Positions 5,734 through 14,938 of a stretch of 25,020 bases of DNA are shown here, in pieces; within the stretch, counting starts at the first letter, position 1; every line of letters begins with the position of its first letter. Location: IMG/VR virus record IMGVR_UViG_3300025671_000482, positions 1 through 25,020 of that record; one strand, given 5' to 3'. Position numbers and translations under genes: made by a program. Under the pieces are notes generated by a model. That model did no database searches, was not told the DNA's origin, and saw nothing but the letters and a program-made list of their open reading frames with translations. The stretch is from a virus.

Positions 5734-8049
5734 ATGGCGGATCTTTACGAAGAGTACAAGAAAAAAAGAGAAGAAGGGAAACTTGAAGTTCCAAGCCCAA
5801 ATTTAAATATATCTGAAATGTCAGATGTGTTGAAAGCATCGCTTGGAGTTAAGGGGGAGCAGGCTTCTGCGAAAGGAGTTGAGCTTGTTCAATCTGGATA
5901 TCCAGATAATGGAAAAATTTATAAATTGCCAGATGGAACATATAACTATGTTTCAGATTCTTATTCGACTACCAATCAAGATGAAATTGCCAAAATAGCT
6001 AGTCAAGGCACTGCGGGAACACTAGATGTTGATCCTGCGACTTCTTTTAAAAGTAGGGCAATACTTGAGCAAGATCCACAGAATATTGCTGGCGCTGCTG
6101 GAGCAAAATATTTATATTCTTTGCCATTTGTCGGATCAAGAGCATTGGGAGCATTAGAAAATGTTACTGGATCTGCCGGGCTAGAGAAAAGAGGTATGAG
6201 AGCAAAACAAGCTCTCGAACAAGAGCGCCCCGGAGTTAGCGCAACTGTTTCTGGCACATCAATTGGATCAAGCGGCGGATTAGGATTCTTACTATCAAAT
6301 TCAATTAAATATCCTCAGTCTTTAACTAATTTAGCAAGCAAGACTATAAGAAGCGAATCTCCTGTTGCTAGAGCTTTATCAAATGCAGCAGCAACTGGAA
6401 CTTTAGCTGCTACAGAAGGATACATATACGGATCTGGAGAAGAGGGAGCCAGCCCGTTTCTTAGGGCAGGAGCGCAAGGCGGCATAGGAGCAGTTCTTGG
6501 AGCGCTTTCAACTCCATTTGGAGCTCTAATAAATCGTTTTGTAAATAAAGAAAGCCAGACTTCAATTGCGCCTAACATTGCAAGCCAATTTGGAATATCA
6601 ATGGAAACGGCTAGATTGATTGAATCTCAAATAGCTCGCGGAATGGATTTTAACGAAGCTATTCAAAACATCAAAAGAGCAGGATCTGAGGGCATGATTG
6701 CTGACGCTGATCAGGCTACTCAGGCATTGTTAGATGCAGCAATGGCTTCTGGCGCTCAAGGCACTAGAAGCGGCGAAAAAGCAATTTCTGAAAGACTTGG
6801 AAAATCAACTCAAAAAGTAGAAAGCGAAATAGAGAGAATATTTGGGCCTAGAACTGATCCATCAATAGATCCTGTAGAGGCTATTAGAGCAAGAACAGCG
6901 CCGCAAAGAAACATTGCATATAACAAGGCATACGCTACTCCAATTGATTACACCACTAAACAAGGTCAAAGAATATTGAACGTGTTTAATGAAATATCAA
7001 ATAGTCCAATTGGAAGAAAAATTATTAAAGAATCAATTGATGCTGCGAATCTAGAAACAACCGTTGCGAGATTGGAAGGCGGATCTACTCCATTTAAAAA
7101 GCAATTAGAAATAAATTTAGATGAATATGGAAATTTAATTAGTTTTAAAGAACAGCCAAACGTATTTCAACTTGATCAAATAAAAAGACAATTAGATAAA
7201 ATTGGACAAGATGTTGATGCAAATGGAGTCTTTACTAGAGAAGCCCAACTTGCTCAAAAAATGTCAAAAGTTTTAAGAGAAGCTGTTGGCGCCTCTGTTC
7301 CTAAATACAGAAAAGCTCTTGCTATTGGTGGAGACGCAATACAGGAAGACATAGCATATAAATTTGGAAATGATATTTTTAATCCAAAAAAAGATTTGTC
7401 AAAATTAGCAAATATTCTTGATGGCGCTTCTTTGGACACAAAGGCTGCTTTAAAACTTGGAATTAGAAATAAAATAGCTCAAATATTTGATGAGGCTATG
7501 GTTACTGCTGGAAAGGCAAGCGCATCAGATGTTGAGGCAACAAGATCATTAATAAAAACTTTATCATCAAGATCATCAAAAGAAAAAATGATAAAAGTTT
7601 TAGGAGATTCCGAGACAAACAAATTGCTAAAAGAAATTGATGCCGCAAAATCATCGTTTGAACTTAGAGCGAGAACTGGTGGCCAATCCTTAACAGCAAG
7701 AAGGCAATCTACTCAAGAAGCAGCTAAAGAAATTGTTGAGCTTGGAAGTATAAGATCAATTCTTGAAGGAAAACCAAAAAACGCAGCTTCAAATATTCAA
7801 AAGTTGATTGAATCAACTACTGAAAAAGAAAGATTAGATCAACTTTATTCTGAAGCAATCGATCTTTTGACAAAAAGAAAAGGTAGAAGTGCAGAAAGCG
7901 CAATACGATATATAAGAAGGGCTATGGAAGGAGTTAAACCTACTAATACTCAAGCAAGGTTTATTGCTGAAGAAGTAGCAAAGGGAGCAAAAACATACGC
8001 TGGTTATCCATTCGTAAGAGAATGGATTCCGGCAGGAACAATGCCATAA
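5734..8049 (+). CDS. Large internal virion (ejection) protein
   Basis: 771 residues from ATG 5734, with AAGAGG upstream. Residues 1-90 hold a charged N-terminal region; residues about 118-270 are rich in Gly, Ala and Ser with hydrophobic stretches (around 'YLYSLPFVGSRALG', 'SGGLGFLLS' and 'GGIGAVLGALSTPFGAL'), which could insert in or span a membrane. The C-terminal 480 residues are predicted long helices with many Lys, Glu, Ala and Ile. This layout, and the position between the transglycosylase protein and the portal, matches the ejected inner-core proteins of short-tailed phages that form a channel through the envelope. No catalytic motif is seen. Codon use is A-rich and AGA-dominated as in its upstream neighbour. 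The function is inferred from context and layout. Confidence 0.65.
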   Translation: MADLYEEYKKKREEGKLEVPSPNLNISEMSDVLKASLGVKGEQASAKGVELVQSGYPDNGKIYKLPDGTYNYVSDSYSTTNQDEIAKIASQGTAGTLDVDPATSFKSRAILEQDPQNIAGAAGAKYLYSLPFVGSRALGALENVTGSAGLEKRGMRAKQALEQERPGVSATVSGTSIGSSGGLGFLLSNSIKYPQSLTNLASKTIRSESPVARALSNAAATGTLAATEGYIYGSGEEGASPFLRAGAQGGIGAVLGALSTPFGALINRFVNKESQTSIAPNIASQFGISMETARLIESQIARGMDFNEAIQNIKRAGSEGMIADADQATQALLDAAMASGAQGTRSGEKAISERLGKSTQKVESEIERIFGPRTDPSIDPVEAIRARTAPQRNIAYNKAYATPIDYTTKQGQRILNVFNEISNSPIGRKIIKESIDAANLETTVARLEGGSTPFKKQLEINLDEYGNLISFKEQPNVFQLDQIKRQLDKIGQDVDANGVFTREAQLAQKMSKVLREAVGASVPKYRKALAIGGDAIQEDIAYKFGNDIFNPKKDLSKLANILDGASLDTKAALKLGIRNKIAQIFDEAMVTAGKASASDVEATRSLIKTLSSRSSKEKMIKVLGDSETNKLLKEIDAAKSSFELRARTGGQSLTARRQSTQEAAKEIVELGSIRSILEGKPKNAASNIQKLIESTTEKERLDQLYSEAIDLLTKRKGRSAESAIRYIRRAMEGVKPTNTQARFIAEEVAKGAKTYAGYPFVREWIPAGTMP

Positions 8050-8059
8050 GGAAACATAA

Positions 8060-10153
8060 ATGAAGCCAGAACGCATGGACAAATCAACGATTCAGGGCAT
8101 AGTTAGAGATGCTGTTTCTGACGCTGTTGACTTTATTGAGAGTGAAGTAGCTGATGACCGAATCAAGGCGCAAAGATACTTTGATGGCGAAGTAGATATC
8201 GGACAAGAAGACGGCAGATCAAAAGTCGTAGCAACTAAGGTACGGGATACCGTCAGGGCTATTAAGCCAAGCCTTATGCGCGTGTTTTTGTCTACAGATA
8301 AGCCAGTTGAGTATGTGCCAAAAGGCCCAGAAGACGTTGGAACGGCGCAAATGGCAACTCAGTATATGCACTGGGCGTTTGGCGAACTTGGCGGATATCG
8401 CATCGTAAATGACGCATTTCATGACGCATTAGTCAAAAAGGTTGGAGTTCTTAAAACGTATTGGGATAAATATACAGACGTTGAGACTTATACGTTTACC
8501 AACTTAACCGACGAAGAATTTGCTGCGATAGTAAACGAAGATGACGTAGATGTGATTGAGCATAGCCAAGAAAGTTCCATGTCAATTGATGAGATGGGCA
8601 TGGAAATGGAGGCCACTCAGCACAGCGTCACAATTAACAGAAAGACTGAAAAGGGCCGTTTAAAGGTTGAATCAGTTCCGCCAGAGGAATTCATGGTGGA
8701 CAGGAACGCTCGATCCATTGACGACTTCTATGTAGTGGCTCACCGTACCGAGATGCGCGTATCTGACGTTGTAAACATGGGATACGACTTTGAGGAAGTG
8801 TCAAACTTAGACGGAATTGGCTCAAGTGACACATACTCAGAGGCAGAAGATTTTGAGCGTCGCGGATACCAGATGGAAGAGGAAGAGCAAACCAAAGACG
8901 TATCTATGAAGCTCGTGGCAATAACAGAAGCTTACATGAAGATGGACATTGAAGGCACAGGAATTGCCCAAATGTACAAATTCATCCTTGGCGGAAGTAA
9001 CTACCAGCTACTGGATTACGAGCCTTGGGGAGAGGTTCCGTTTGCCATATTTGAGGTAGATCCAGAGCCACACGCATTCTTTGGACGATCAATCGCTGAT
9101 CTCATTTTAGAAGATCAAGACGCAGCCACAGCTATGCTTCGTGGCGTACTTGATAACGTGGCATTGACTAACAATCCAAGGCTTGGATTTGTTGAAAATC
9201 AGGTCAATGTCGATGACCTATTAAACAATGAGATTGGCGGCCTAATCCGCATGAAAGTGCCAAACGCCATACAAGAGATTTCTGTGCCGTTTGTGGCCGC
9301 TAACACGCTTACGGCTATTCAGTACATGGATCAGATGATTGAGGGCAAGACAGGCGTTTCTAGGGCCGCTATGGGCCTAGATCCAGATGCGCTTCAAAAT
9401 ACTACCGCTACGGCGGCTCAGTTGACCGCACAGGGCGGCGCGGCTCAGATAGAGGTAATGGCAAGGAATCTGGCAGAGGGCGGCATGAAGCGCCTATTTA
9501 AGCTCATGTTGAAGCTGTTTATTGAAAACAGTGACGAAGAGCAAATGATGCGTATGAACAGCCAGTTTGTGCCTGTTGATCCACGCTCATGGAACACCAG
9601 CATGGACGTTATGTGTAACGTCGGTCTTGGAACTGGGCAAGAAGATCAAAAGGCCGCCGCATTGCAACAAGCTCTAGGGCTACAGATGCAGATATGGCAG
9701 GCTTATGGGCCGGGCAATGGTTTGGTCACGATGACGCTAATTCGCAATACATTGGCTGATATGTTGGCGGTTGCTGGCATTAGAAACAGCGACAGATACT
9801 TTACTCCAATGAACGAGCAGTACGAGCAACAGTTGATCATGATGAAGCAACAGCAGGCAGCTAATAGTCCACAGCCGATTGATCCCGGTCAGGCTCTTAT
9901 ACAGGCCGAGCAACTCAAGGCCCAGACCAAGGCTCAGTCCGACATGGTTAAGATGCAGGTCGAGGCTCAGAAGGCCATTGCTCAAGATGATCGTGAGCGC
10001 GACAAGATGGATCAAGACTTGCTTATTGAGGCAGCTAAGATACTTGGCCAGTATGGTACGCAAGTCGATGTTGCCAACATTCGCAAGGCTCAACAGGAAG
10101 CCAGATATCCAGATAAACGGCCATCTGAGGCTGTATCTGGCGGAAGGTTTTAA
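8060..10153 (+). CDS. Portal protein (SU10/P22-like)
   Basis: 697 residues from ATG 8060 with AAGGAAA upstream. The order of motifs is that of the long portal family found in P22- and SU10-like phages: an N-terminal helical region, 'EDGRSKVVATKVRDTVRAIKPSL' near residue 52 onward, 'VEYVPKGPEDVGTAQMATQY', a middle domain with 'VESVPPEEFMVDRNARSIDD', then 'PFAIFEVDPEPHAFFGRSIADL', 'EDQDAATAMLRGVLDN' and 'GKTGVSRAAMGLDPDAL' with an Asn-Thr-Thr-Ala-Thr-Ala run. The C-terminal 100 residues are Gln-rich and helical, as in portals with a barrel. Twelve copies form the DNA entry vertex and bind terminase. It precedes scaffold and capsid genes, the usual order. The stop overlaps the next ATG (TAATG). 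Confidence 0.93.
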   Translation: MKPERMDKSTIQGIVRDAVSDAVDFIESEVADDRIKAQRYFDGEVDIGQEDGRSKVVATKVRDTVRAIKPSLMRVFLSTDKPVEYVPKGPEDVGTAQMATQYMHWAFGELGGYRIVNDAFHDALVKKVGVLKTYWDKYTDVETYTFTNLTDEEFAAIVNEDDVDVIEHSQESSMSIDEMGMEMEATQHSVTINRKTEKGRLKVESVPPEEFMVDRNARSIDDFYVVAHRTEMRVSDVVNMGYDFEEVSNLDGIGSSDTYSEAEDFERRGYQMEEEEQTKDVSMKLVAITEAYMKMDIEGTGIAQMYKFILGGSNYQLLDYEPWGEVPFAIFEVDPEPHAFFGRSIADLILEDQDAATAMLRGVLDNVALTNNPRLGFVENQVNVDDLLNNEIGGLIRMKVPNAIQEISVPFVAANTLTAIQYMDQMIEGKTGVSRAAMGLDPDALQNTTATAAQLTAQGGAAQIEVMARNLAEGGMKRLFKLMLKLFIENSDEEQMMRMNSQFVPVDPRSWNTSMDVMCNVGLGTGQEDQKAAALQQALGLQMQIWQAYGPGNGLVTMTLIRNTLADMLAVAGIRNSDRYFTPMNEQYEQQLIMMKQQQAANSPQPIDPGQALIQAEQLKAQTKAQSDMVKMQVEAQKAIAQDDRERDKMDQDLLIEAAKILGQYGTQVDVANIRKAQQEARYPDKRPSEAVSGGRF

Positions 10154-10394: not shown

Positions 10395-11393
10395 GTGGCA
10401 GACACGACTGAAACCACATTCGATGGAAGCATCGAGCAGGCAGTTGGATTAATCACTAGGCCAGAGCCTTCTGATGAAGTAGAGCAAGAAGATATTACTG
10501 AATCTGAGGATGTATCTCCAGAGGTGGAGGCATCGGAATCAGAGGATGTTGATGACGCTGAATACGACGACAGCGAGGAAGATGAAGTAGAAGTCGAAAT
10601 GAAGGACGATGACGACGAAACAGATGACGAAGCCGATTCTGAAGAACCTGTATATTTTTCCGTCAAAGTTGATGGAAAAGAAGAGCAGGTAACCTTAGAG
10701 GATCTCAAGCGTGGTTATTCTGGCCAGAAGTACGTCCAAAAAGGGATGCAAGAAGTAGCCGCCAACAGAAAACAAACTGAGGAGGTTTACTCTGCACTTT
10801 TAGCCGAAAGACAACAGCTCGTTGAGATGTATCAACAGATGCAACAAGGGCAGTTCTTGTCAAAGCCTAATCCACCATCTGACGATCTTTTGAGCGATGA
10901 TCCAATTGGATACATTGAGCAAAAGGCCAGATACGATAAGGCAATGGAGCAATACAACCAGCAGCAAGGAAAAATGAGCCAGATCATGCAACAAAGTGAG
11001 CAGGCTCGTGAACGTGCTGTACAGGCTTATTTGCAACAAGAAATGCAATCGTTGGCAAATGTTATCCCTGACTTTGGTGACGCGCAAAAAGCAACCAAGC
11101 TCAAGGGCAAATTATTAGATGGCGGTCAAAGCTTCTACGGTTATACCGAAGAAGAGATCGGCTCAATAATGGATCACCGAGCAATTAGAGTTTTAAACGA
11201 TGCCATCAAGTACCGCGAGATAGTCGCTGGCAAGTCGAAAGCCGAGCAAAAAGCTAAAGGCGCGAAACCAGTTATCAGGCCGGGATCTAAGAAGGTACAA
11301 AATCCTAATGTCAAGGCTATGGAACGGCGAAAAGCCAAATTTAAAACGAGTGGGCGCATCGAAGATGCTCTCGCTTTAATCGTTAATGAATAA
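10395..11393 (+). CDS. Capsid scaffolding protein
   Basis: 332 residues from GTG 10395, chosen because GGGAGA lies at 10381-10386 and because the frame has no better start. Residues about 15-85 are extremely acidic (runs of Asp and Glu), then comes 'VKVDGKEEQVTLEDLKRGYSG', a long Gln/Glu/Met-rich coiled-coil region (about 115-210), and a basic C-terminus with 'KPVIRPGSKKVQNPNVKAM' and 'RRKAKFKTSGRIEDALAL'. An acidic start, helical middle and basic tail that docks on capsid protein is the standard organisation of phage scaffolds, and the gene lies exactly between portal and major capsid genes. No protease motif is seen, so scaffold release is probably not by self-cleavage. Confidence 0.85.
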   Translation: MADTTETTFDGSIEQAVGLITRPEPSDEVEQEDITESEDVSPEVEASESEDVDDAEYDDSEEDEVEVEMKDDDDETDDEADSEEPVYFSVKVDGKEEQVTLEDLKRGYSGQKYVQKGMQEVAANRKQTEEVYSALLAERQQLVEMYQQMQQGQFLSKPNPPSDDLLSDDPIGYIEQKARYDKAMEQYNQQQGKMSQIMQQSEQARERAVQAYLQQEMQSLANVIPDFGDAQKATKLKGKLLDGGQSFYGYTEEEIGSIMDHRAIRVLNDAIKYREIVAGKSKAEQKAKGAKPVIRPGSKKVQNPNVKAMERRKAKFKTSGRIEDALALIVNE

Positions 11394-11410: not shown

Positions 11411-12626
11411 ATGGCACAACCAAGTAACACTTTTGACAGCTATGATGCTGTCGGTATCAGAGAGGATCTCTCAGATATAATCCATGACGTTTCGCCTTTT
11501 TTTGGGGCCAATCTGAAGTAATTCAGAATTGATAATTGCGTGAATTGCTGGAACGCTAAGTTGAAAAATAAGCCAATCAGCAGCCAAGCGTCACAGGGAT
11601 GTGATGAAGGTTCAGAGACTAGGACATGGAGGCTAGAACAGCCAGTAAAGTCCCACGAGTGCGCAACATCCTACGGGATGAAGATATAGTCCGATACTCT
11701 TCAGAAACGAAGAGAGCCAAAGATAAAGAGCTTTGGTGTAACAATTGGAAGAAACACCGTTCTACTCAAAGTGTAAGAAACTAAAAGCTTCTAACACGCT
11801 ACATGAGTGGCAAACTGACACTCTTCGCGCTTCAGCTGCTAACGCGCACGTTGAAGGTGACGAGATCACAGCTAACGCTCGTTCAGCTACTTCACGTCTT
11901 GGCAACTACACACAGATTTTCGTTGACGCTGTGTCAGTTCCAGATACAGACTCAGGTCTGAGAAAAGCTGGTCGTGCATCAGAGATTGCATATCAAATGC
12001 TCAAGACTGCAAAAGAGCAGAAGCTTGACATTGAGAAGGCTCTCTTTGACAACAACGCTCGCGTTGCTGGTAACAGTACGACTGCTCGTGAACTTGCTGG
12101 CGCTCCAACTTGGTTGATCACCAACACTGTTTTTGGTGACAACGAAGGTGCTGACGCTACTGGTGACGGAACGGATGCTCGTACTGATGAGACAACCAGT
12201 CTTACCGCATTCAACCAAACTGACTTTGACACTGTCATGCAGTCAATTTGGGAGCAAGGCGGCAAGCCAAACACTGTTTATCTCTCAGCATTCCAGATGA
12301 ACAAAGCTCTTGCCTTCACCGGCATGAACAACCAGCGTTCAACGATTGGTGCATCAGTTGGTGGAACAAATGCTGTTATCAAAGCAGTTGACGTTTACGT
12401 TACGCCTTGGGGAACAGTAGACTTCATGCCATCTCGTGAGAACCGTTCTCGTGACGTGTTTATCATGCAAGATGATATGTGGTCAGTTGCAGTTCTACGT
12501 CCTACAAAGAACATGGAACTTGCTAAAACTTCTGACTCAACTCGACGCGCAATCGTTACTGAGCTTACTCTCGTATGTAACAACGAGAAAGCATCAGGCG
12601 GTGTGTTCGACAACACAGTATCTTAA
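11411..12626 (+). CDS. Major capsid protein, interrupted by a group I intron
   Basis: Two exons: 11411-11497 (29 codons) and 11748-12626 (292 codons plus stop), giving 321 residues after removal of the intron at 11498-11747. Exon 1 starts at ATG 11411 behind GAGGT and encodes MAQPSNTFDSYDAVGIREDL to DVSP; exon 2 continues EETPFYSKCKK, ASNTLHEWQTDTL, so the join restores the conserved 'SP-x-E-T-P-F ... HEWQTD' region of the DUF5309/SU10-type HK97-fold capsid family. Later motifs include 'QIFVDAVSVPDTDSG', 'KALFDNN' and 'MELAKTSDSTRRAIVTELTL'. The codons favour CGT and GTT-type highly expressed usage. Without splicing the frame stops at 11519-11521 after 36 residues, and exon 2 has no ribosome site of its own. 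It follows scaffold and is closed by a strong terminator. Confidence 0.93.
11498..11747 (+). ncRNA. Self-splicing group I intron (IA-type), no ORF
   Basis: The four conserved core elements are present in order: P (AATTGCTGGAA, 11543-11553), Q (AATCAGCAGCC, 11575-11585), R (GTTCAGAGACTA, 11610-11621) and S (AAGATATAGTCC, 11681-11692). Pairings drawn by hand: P1 exon GCCU 11494-11497 with GGGC 11505-11508, placing a U-G pair at the 5' splice site; P2 11512-11517/11522-11527 closed by a GUAA loop; P3 UUGCG 11536-11540 with CGCAA 11662-11666; P4 GCUG 11547-11550 with CAGC 11578-11581; P6 UCAC 11591-11594 with GUGA 11601-11604; P7 GACUA 11617-11621 with UAGUC 11687-11691; P7.1 11631-11634/11640-11643; P8 11667-11671/11676-11680; P9 11697-11702/11709-11714; P9.1 11716-11722/11731-11737. 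The terminal G is 11747. A hairpin between R and the 3' strand of P3 is a hallmark of subgroup IA. At 250 bases it encodes no homing endonuclease. Confidence 0.95.
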
Positions 12627-12634
12627 TTGATACG

Positions 12635-12660
12635 GGGGGGCTAAATGCCCCCCTTTTTTT
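12635..12660 (+). terminator. Intrinsic terminator after the capsid gene
   Basis: Eight bases beyond the capsid stop, GGGGGGC (12635-12641) pairs with GCCCCCC (12647-12653) across a TAAAT loop and is followed by seven T (12654-12660). This is a very strong rho-independent terminator, expected to end or attenuate capsid transcription and so to separate high capsid expression from the following genes. The next gene starts only 12 bases later, so those genes need read-through or their own promoter. Confidence 0.93.
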
Positions 12661-14552: not shown

Positions 14553-14560
14553 TAAAGTAA

Positions 14561-14938
14561 TTGTCTGATCCAGTAGCTAGACGTAATTCGCGTTATAAAA
14601 GCGTCTATGGAATCACATTCCGCCAATACGTTGAAATGGCGTTCAGGCAAGGCAATAAATGCCTGATATGCGGCGTTGACGGCAAGCAAACTGAGAGGGA
14701 AAAATTATCAGTTGATCACTGCCACCATTATGGTGAAATACGGGGATTGCTTTGCCAGAAATGTAACACTGGGCTTGGGCTATTTGATGACAATCCAGAG
14801 GCTATAATTAAGGCAGCAAAGTATTTGAAAAGATTCAATAGAAAGATAAAGCTCTCAAGGGCTGTAAAGAGAATTTATTATTTTATTGTTAAACTCTCAT
14901 GGTCGATATTTCCTACTTATTGGAGGCTTAAAAAATGA
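14561..14938 (+). CDS. Endonuclease VII-like HNH nuclease
   Basis: 125 residues. The core shows 'YKSVYGITFRQY', a zinc pair C34-x2-C37, then 'LSVDHCHHYGEIRGLLCQKCNTGLGLFDDN' region (Asp 52, His 53, Cys 65, Cys 68, Asn 69), and a helix 'PEAIIKAAKYL'. This is the recombination endonuclease VII (T4 gp49) / beta-beta-alpha-metal pattern. Members either resolve branched DNA before packaging or act as free-standing homing endonucleases. TTG 14561 is the only start that keeps the conserved N-terminal helix; its ribosome site is weak. The C-terminal 30 residues are hydrophobic and aromatic (RIYYFIVKLSW, IFPTYWRL), which is not usual for the family. It interrupts a lysis region rather than a DNA-metabolism operon. 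Confidence 0.85.
   Translation: MSDPVARRNSRYKSVYGITFRQYVEMAFRQGNKCLICGVDGKQTEREKLSVDHCHHYGEIRGLLCQKCNTGLGLFDDNPEAIIKAAKYLKRFNRKIKLSRAVKRIYYFIVKLSWSIFPTYWRLKK

Follow-up and report, generated by a model that had tools for sequence, protein, structure and literature searches.

Introns in phage capsid genes have been described in several systems, and we first compare these with the locus reported here. In the cluster J mycobacteriophage LittleE, the major capsid gene contains an 819-bp intron, most likely of group I according to its authors, that has a putative gene for a homing endonuclease on its opposite strand and is present in one of six related genomes; its splicing was proven by RT-PCR together with N-terminal protein sequence (PMC3706429). 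A capsid intron in Tuc2009 is cited in the same work (PMC3706429). The crAss-like Delta and Zeta phages, which are gut phages with intron-rich genomes, have group I introns in their MCP genes, up to several per gene, recognised mainly via their endonuclease domains (PMC7886860). Among introns lacking an endonuclease gene, the 265-bp intron of BAKA and Optimus interrupts a structural gene and is spliced in vivo (PMC3706429), and in collaborative homing an intron without an ORF, located at a conserved site, moves with conversion of the flanking exons by means of a separate partner endonuclease (PMC3984707).

The insert studied here, 250 nt long, interrupts the gene for the major capsid protein in a linear virus record from IMG/VR; the whole record of 25,020 bases is referred to below as the window. 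Like the LittleE intron, the insert interrupts a tailed-phage major capsid gene, is preceded by U and ends in G, but it is shorter, lacks an endonuclease gene, occurs in a capsid gene of the SU10 type and recurs at one position in many phages. Unlike the situation in the crAss-like phages, it is at the capsid gene that group I matches were found in the window's close relatives, and the majority of the introns are endonuclease-free. The insert shares with the BAKA/Optimus intron its small size, its lack of an endonuclease gene and its location in a structural gene, although the latter is a tail gene in another phage group. Its likeness to collaborative homing systems extends to the conserved site and the movement with flanking-exon conversion, but no partner endonuclease linked to the intron was found in the partial contigs of the window's relatives. 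The original prediction had called a capsid location unusual; such a location is indeed uncommon, but in view of LittleE and the crAss-like Delta and Zeta phages (PMC3706429, PMC7886860) it is not new. What is new here is the recurrent use of the same codon site, by introns that are mostly endonuclease-free, together with several insertion sites in the capsid gene and the existence of occupied/empty pairs.

The interrupted gene is on the plus strand. Exon 1 (11411-11497; 29 codons, MAQPSNTFDSYDAVGIREDLSDIIHDVSP) ends in DVSP, and its translation matches the N-terminus of uninterrupted relatives; exon 2 (11748-12626; 292 codons) runs from EETPFYS to the stop codon. The predicted spliced product of 321 amino acids aligns with uninterrupted relatives without a gap at the junction, in agreement with the exon boundaries originally proposed. 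The identification of the gene as that of the major capsid protein was likewise borne out: the product matches the Pfam profile of SU10-type major capsid proteins (SU10_MCP, PF17236) over its full length (residues 7-316, E = 3.7e-81, 273 bits) and a PHROG major head protein family (5.7e-84), and it has a relative of solved structure (9ny2, 8.6e-50). Because an SU10-type portal gene (8060-10153, plus strand; PF23899, 1.9e-194) and a head scaffolding protein gene (10395-11393, plus strand; phrog_3927, 3.6e-51) precede it, the latter just upstream, its position also marks the split gene as the capsid gene. We note by eye a strong terminator-like hairpin followed by a T run directly 3' of the gene (12627-12660).

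The insert (11498-11747, plus strand) has the properties of a group I intron. The only Rfam family above threshold in the window was RF00028, which matched 11488-11714 on the plus strand with 93.2 bits (E = 4.6e-23) against a gathering score of 50 bits, and the match covers model positions 1-253 of 253. This is the scan that had been proposed as a check on the original prediction, and it upholds the class of the intron. The splice sites are borne out as well: a U precedes the 5' splice site and forms a U.G pair with the internal guide sequence, and the last intron base is G. When the intron was folded as a lone strand, the predicted structure had an energy of -78.8 kcal/mol (z = -4.1; none of 200 shuffles was as good) and contained P1-P6, P7.1, P7.2, P8, P9 and P9.1. 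P7, the pairing of the R and S elements, is a pseudoknot that such folding programs omit, and it was added for the covariation count. With it, the P3-P9 core is complete, including the P, Q, R and S elements. Translation of the 250 nt revealed short reading frames only, none of them endonuclease-like; the intron thus differs from mobile group I introns that bear an endonuclease gene of their own.

The individual helices, all on the plus strand, were examined by aligning seven distinct introns that share this capsid site, and 62 pairs (P7 included) were followed. P1 (11494-11508) joins exon bases GCCU (11494-11497) to the guide GGGC (11505-11508) and is 100% paired in the seven introns. P2 (11513-11526) shows compensatory change in four of five pairs. 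P3 is formed by 11536-11541 with 11661-11666, and P4, which comprises the P and Q elements, by 11546-11551 with 11577-11582, enclosing P5 (11555-11557 with 11571-11573). In P6/P6a (11583-11611), all six pairs of P6a (11590-11595 with 11600-11605) display compensatory change. P7 pairs R (11618-11621) with S (11687-11690), is pseudoknotted with P3 and is the predicted guanosine-binding site. P7.1 (11623-11625 with 11650-11652) and P7.2 (11631-11634 with 11640-11643) together have compensatory change in five of seven pairs, and their presence suggests a subgroup IA intron. P8 (11667-11680) was placed by structure and alignment, and P9 (11697-11714) and P9.1 (11716-11737) show compensatory change in four of six and three of seven pairs, respectively. 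Overall, 99.8% of cells were paired, and 26 of the 62 pairs underwent compensatory change, compared with 15.7 +/- 2.2 in shuffles; when partners were slid by one to three columns as a control, pairing fell to 32-44% and two-sided pairs to five or fewer. RNAalifold, given no structure, returned 79 pairs, 35 of them with compensatory change. P1, P6 and P7 are invariant among the seven introns and, while conserved, have no covariation support of their own. We conclude that covariation supports the intron fold, and every helix named in the original prediction (P1-P4, P6, P7, P7.1, P8, P9 and P9.1) was borne out.

Splicing of the capsid message would be the expected function of such an element. In the transcript, the intron would fold and bind guanosine in P7; the RNA would then be cut after exon 1 (...UCGCCU) and the exons joined to give an mRNA for the 321-residue capsid protein. 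Ribosomes continuing from exon 1 would meet an in-frame TAA at intron codon 8 (11519-11521) and halt before the catalytic core, and in all introns compared the exon 1 frame is closed by a stop no later than intron codon nine; a review sees in-frame stops of this kind as a means of keeping ribosomes off the folding intron (PMC3984707). Further, the bases preceding the SP/E site (the slash marks the point of insertion) are CGCCT in the introns located there. TCG-CCT at residues 28-29 occurs in just 1 of 79 intronless relatives, a comparison in which the intronless set is a close clade and the intron-bearing set spans several clades. This bias would be the synonymous-codon footprint expected of P1. 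The one exception, L042, is the only intronless relative with exactly TCGCCT/GAAGAA, which may reflect clean intron loss or chance.

The same arrangement was found in other phages. The capsid gene continues unbroken through the site in 79 of the best 80 capsid relatives; the remaining one, L005, which is the same contig as L111, holds an intron at that position. A pattern joining the 3' core of the intron to the capsid motif identified 34 viral loci; five of these (L082, L084, L085, L103 and L112) lack a capsid gene and are chance matches, and in the rest an SU10-type capsid gene, with best capsid identity to the window of ~28%-97%, is interrupted at or near the motif. The same codon boundary (SP/EETPF) is used across capsids of ~37-97% amino acid identity to the window, and most of the related introns lack a homing endonuclease gene. 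In a scan with an unrelated capsid motif, 53 capsid genes among the matches listed are continuous across the site, whereas an intron is present there, or the sequence starts within one, in about six (L083, L087, L093, L100, L176 and L179); we estimate an occupancy of roughly one in ten, a figure drawn from a sample and no census. None of 16 intronless relatives checked had any group I match. Two matches to the intron-exon pattern in bacterial genomes were both due to chance, and no capsid match at the site was seen there; among the matches listed for isolated phages (~300 records with an SU10-type capsid relative), no gene was interrupted. Aeromonas phage APT65 (L232) at first had the look of a split gene; it actually has three tandem genes (6243-9101 of OP491958), all annotated as major head protein.

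These comparisons bear on whether the gene is spliced at all and on how the intron came to be where it is. An open frame reading MEETPFYS... starts with TTG at 11745, so exon 2 could in principle be translated alone; equally, the gene could be dead or the interruption an assembly error. We regard any of these as extremely improbable. A product of exon 2 only would lack 29 N-terminal residues that are retained in relatives, inspection by eye reveals no suitably positioned ribosome site, structural constraint acts on the ribozyme core and, although IMG/VR contigs are incomplete metagenome assemblies, the same structure recurs in independent contigs. Inheritance of the intron together with the capsid gene, its patchy distribution resulting from losses, would fit with occupation of the same site in diverged capsids and with the TCGCCT/GAAGAA of intronless L042, as expected after clean loss. 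Against this, intron similarity often greatly exceeds that of the surrounding exons. Identity of the window intron reaches 100% with the L087 intron, compared with 79.4% for the capsid exons, and 99.6% with the L093 intron (exons 77.3%); the introns of L111 and L114 are also 100% identical (exons 81.1%), and the full identities extend over 250-255 nt. Across 78 pairwise comparisons, intron identity exceeded exon identity by more than 3 points in 40, which is the opposite of what vertical descent predicts. The reverse discrepancy is also seen: the window and L111 have a backbone that is ~98% identical, yet their introns are just 86.7% identical and lie in a divergent patch. Vertical inheritance is therefore very unlikely as a general account; it could still hold for the oldest branches of the intron history, but it is contradicted for window/L087 and L111/L114.

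Horizontal transfer accounts for these relationships. In pairs sharing an intron, the nearest exon mismatches are 6-15 bases upstream and 14 bases downstream. L111 (occupied) and L002 (empty) are 96.6% identical over 3.8 kb; in 30-nt bins, identity is 96-100% nearly throughout but drops to 90% before and 70% after the insertion, and the exon differences peak within ~40 bases of it. This is the pattern of a recent insertion with short co-conversion, and makes the pair evidence of inter-allele transfer with co-conversion of the flanks. As judged from such comparisons, the introns are shown to be horizontally mobile between related phages at one capsid boundary. Taking the evidence together, we put at about 95% the probability that 11498-11747 is a complete group I intron inside an SU10-type major capsid gene, one that should be spliced out of the transcript and that is horizontally mobile.

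As for the route, the intron would be copied between related phages, with a little flanking exon, at the conserved capsid codon boundary, most likely during co-infection and by repair of a DNA break made by an endonuclease supplied in trans. We favour this route, which would amount to collaborative homing and which we consider probable, because the co-converted flanks are short and because endonuclease-bearing introns lie almost at the site. The latter are the larger capsid introns of L096 and L098 (930 nt in L098), which contain HNH genes and, by our reading of the splice pairing, are apparently inserted one codon downstream of the window site; L096 has a second capsid interruption with a 222-residue frame that matches no Pfam family. 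HNH matches were found only inside larger introns (L096, L098 and L088), apart from one sub-threshold match in an intronless record, and there were no HNH_3 or GIY-YIG matches in the records scanned. No free-standing endonuclease was linked to the intron among the partial contigs, an absence that is weak given that these are incomplete. The endonuclease VII family gene of the window (14561-14938) was considered as the trans endonuclease and rejected; it is present in intronless members of the clade and absent from other intron-bearing contigs. Occurring in relatives whether or not they have the intron, it probably belongs to the core genes of the clade. We also observed ~400 bases in L005 (4081-4478) that are absent from the window (at 14553); they lie between genes that otherwise match and apparently encode two small basic proteins.

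Movement at the RNA level may contribute in addition: an excised intron could reverse-splice into messages that match its guide (GCCU), be copied to DNA and recombine. The observations that point this way concern further insertion sites. L158, L161, L083 and L087, among the matches listed, carry an intron near residue 250, and this second site follows VTP (VTP/WGT, residue 249). The second-site introns of L087 (1882-2139) and L158 (5199-5456) are 258 nt long and 95% identical to each other, and their cores are 91-94% identical to the window intron (91% for L158); L158 matches the window at ~97% identity across several kb, yet has no intron at SP/E. At a third site, in L156, the intron is 90.6% identical to that of L176, and a second interruption is close by. 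Capsid residues 60-86 of L156 (reverse strand) contain 609 extra bases, apparently two group I introns and a short exon, giving two further sites. The 5' exons across sites all end in GCCT (TTTCGCCT, TAACGCCT and ATAGCCT), whereas the 3' exons share nothing obvious, and reverse splicing needs just 4-6 matching bases (PMC3984707). However, a shared GCCT is expected under any mechanism and does not discriminate between routes, since any splicing intron must match its guide; the pathway has no direct experimental support according to a review (PMC3984707); and the same-site transfers are accounted for by DNA conversion. We therefore consider a contribution from reverse splicing unlikely. Slightly more doubtful still is the broader proposal of a family of endonuclease-free group I introns that is specialised on SU10-type capsid genes and spreads itself, including by reverse splicing into GCCU-matching capsid sites. 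Separately, the L087 contig contains a match to the Rfam glutamine riboswitch (12501-12549, minus strand; 58.5 bits), here in a phage contig.

For annotation, these results serve as a warning that split capsid genes may be miscalled as truncated genes. The empty and occupied sites in close relatives make the movement and the cost of endonuclease-free introns directly testable. Overall, self-splicing introns of environmental phages are seen to have targeted a highly expressed virion gene repeatedly.
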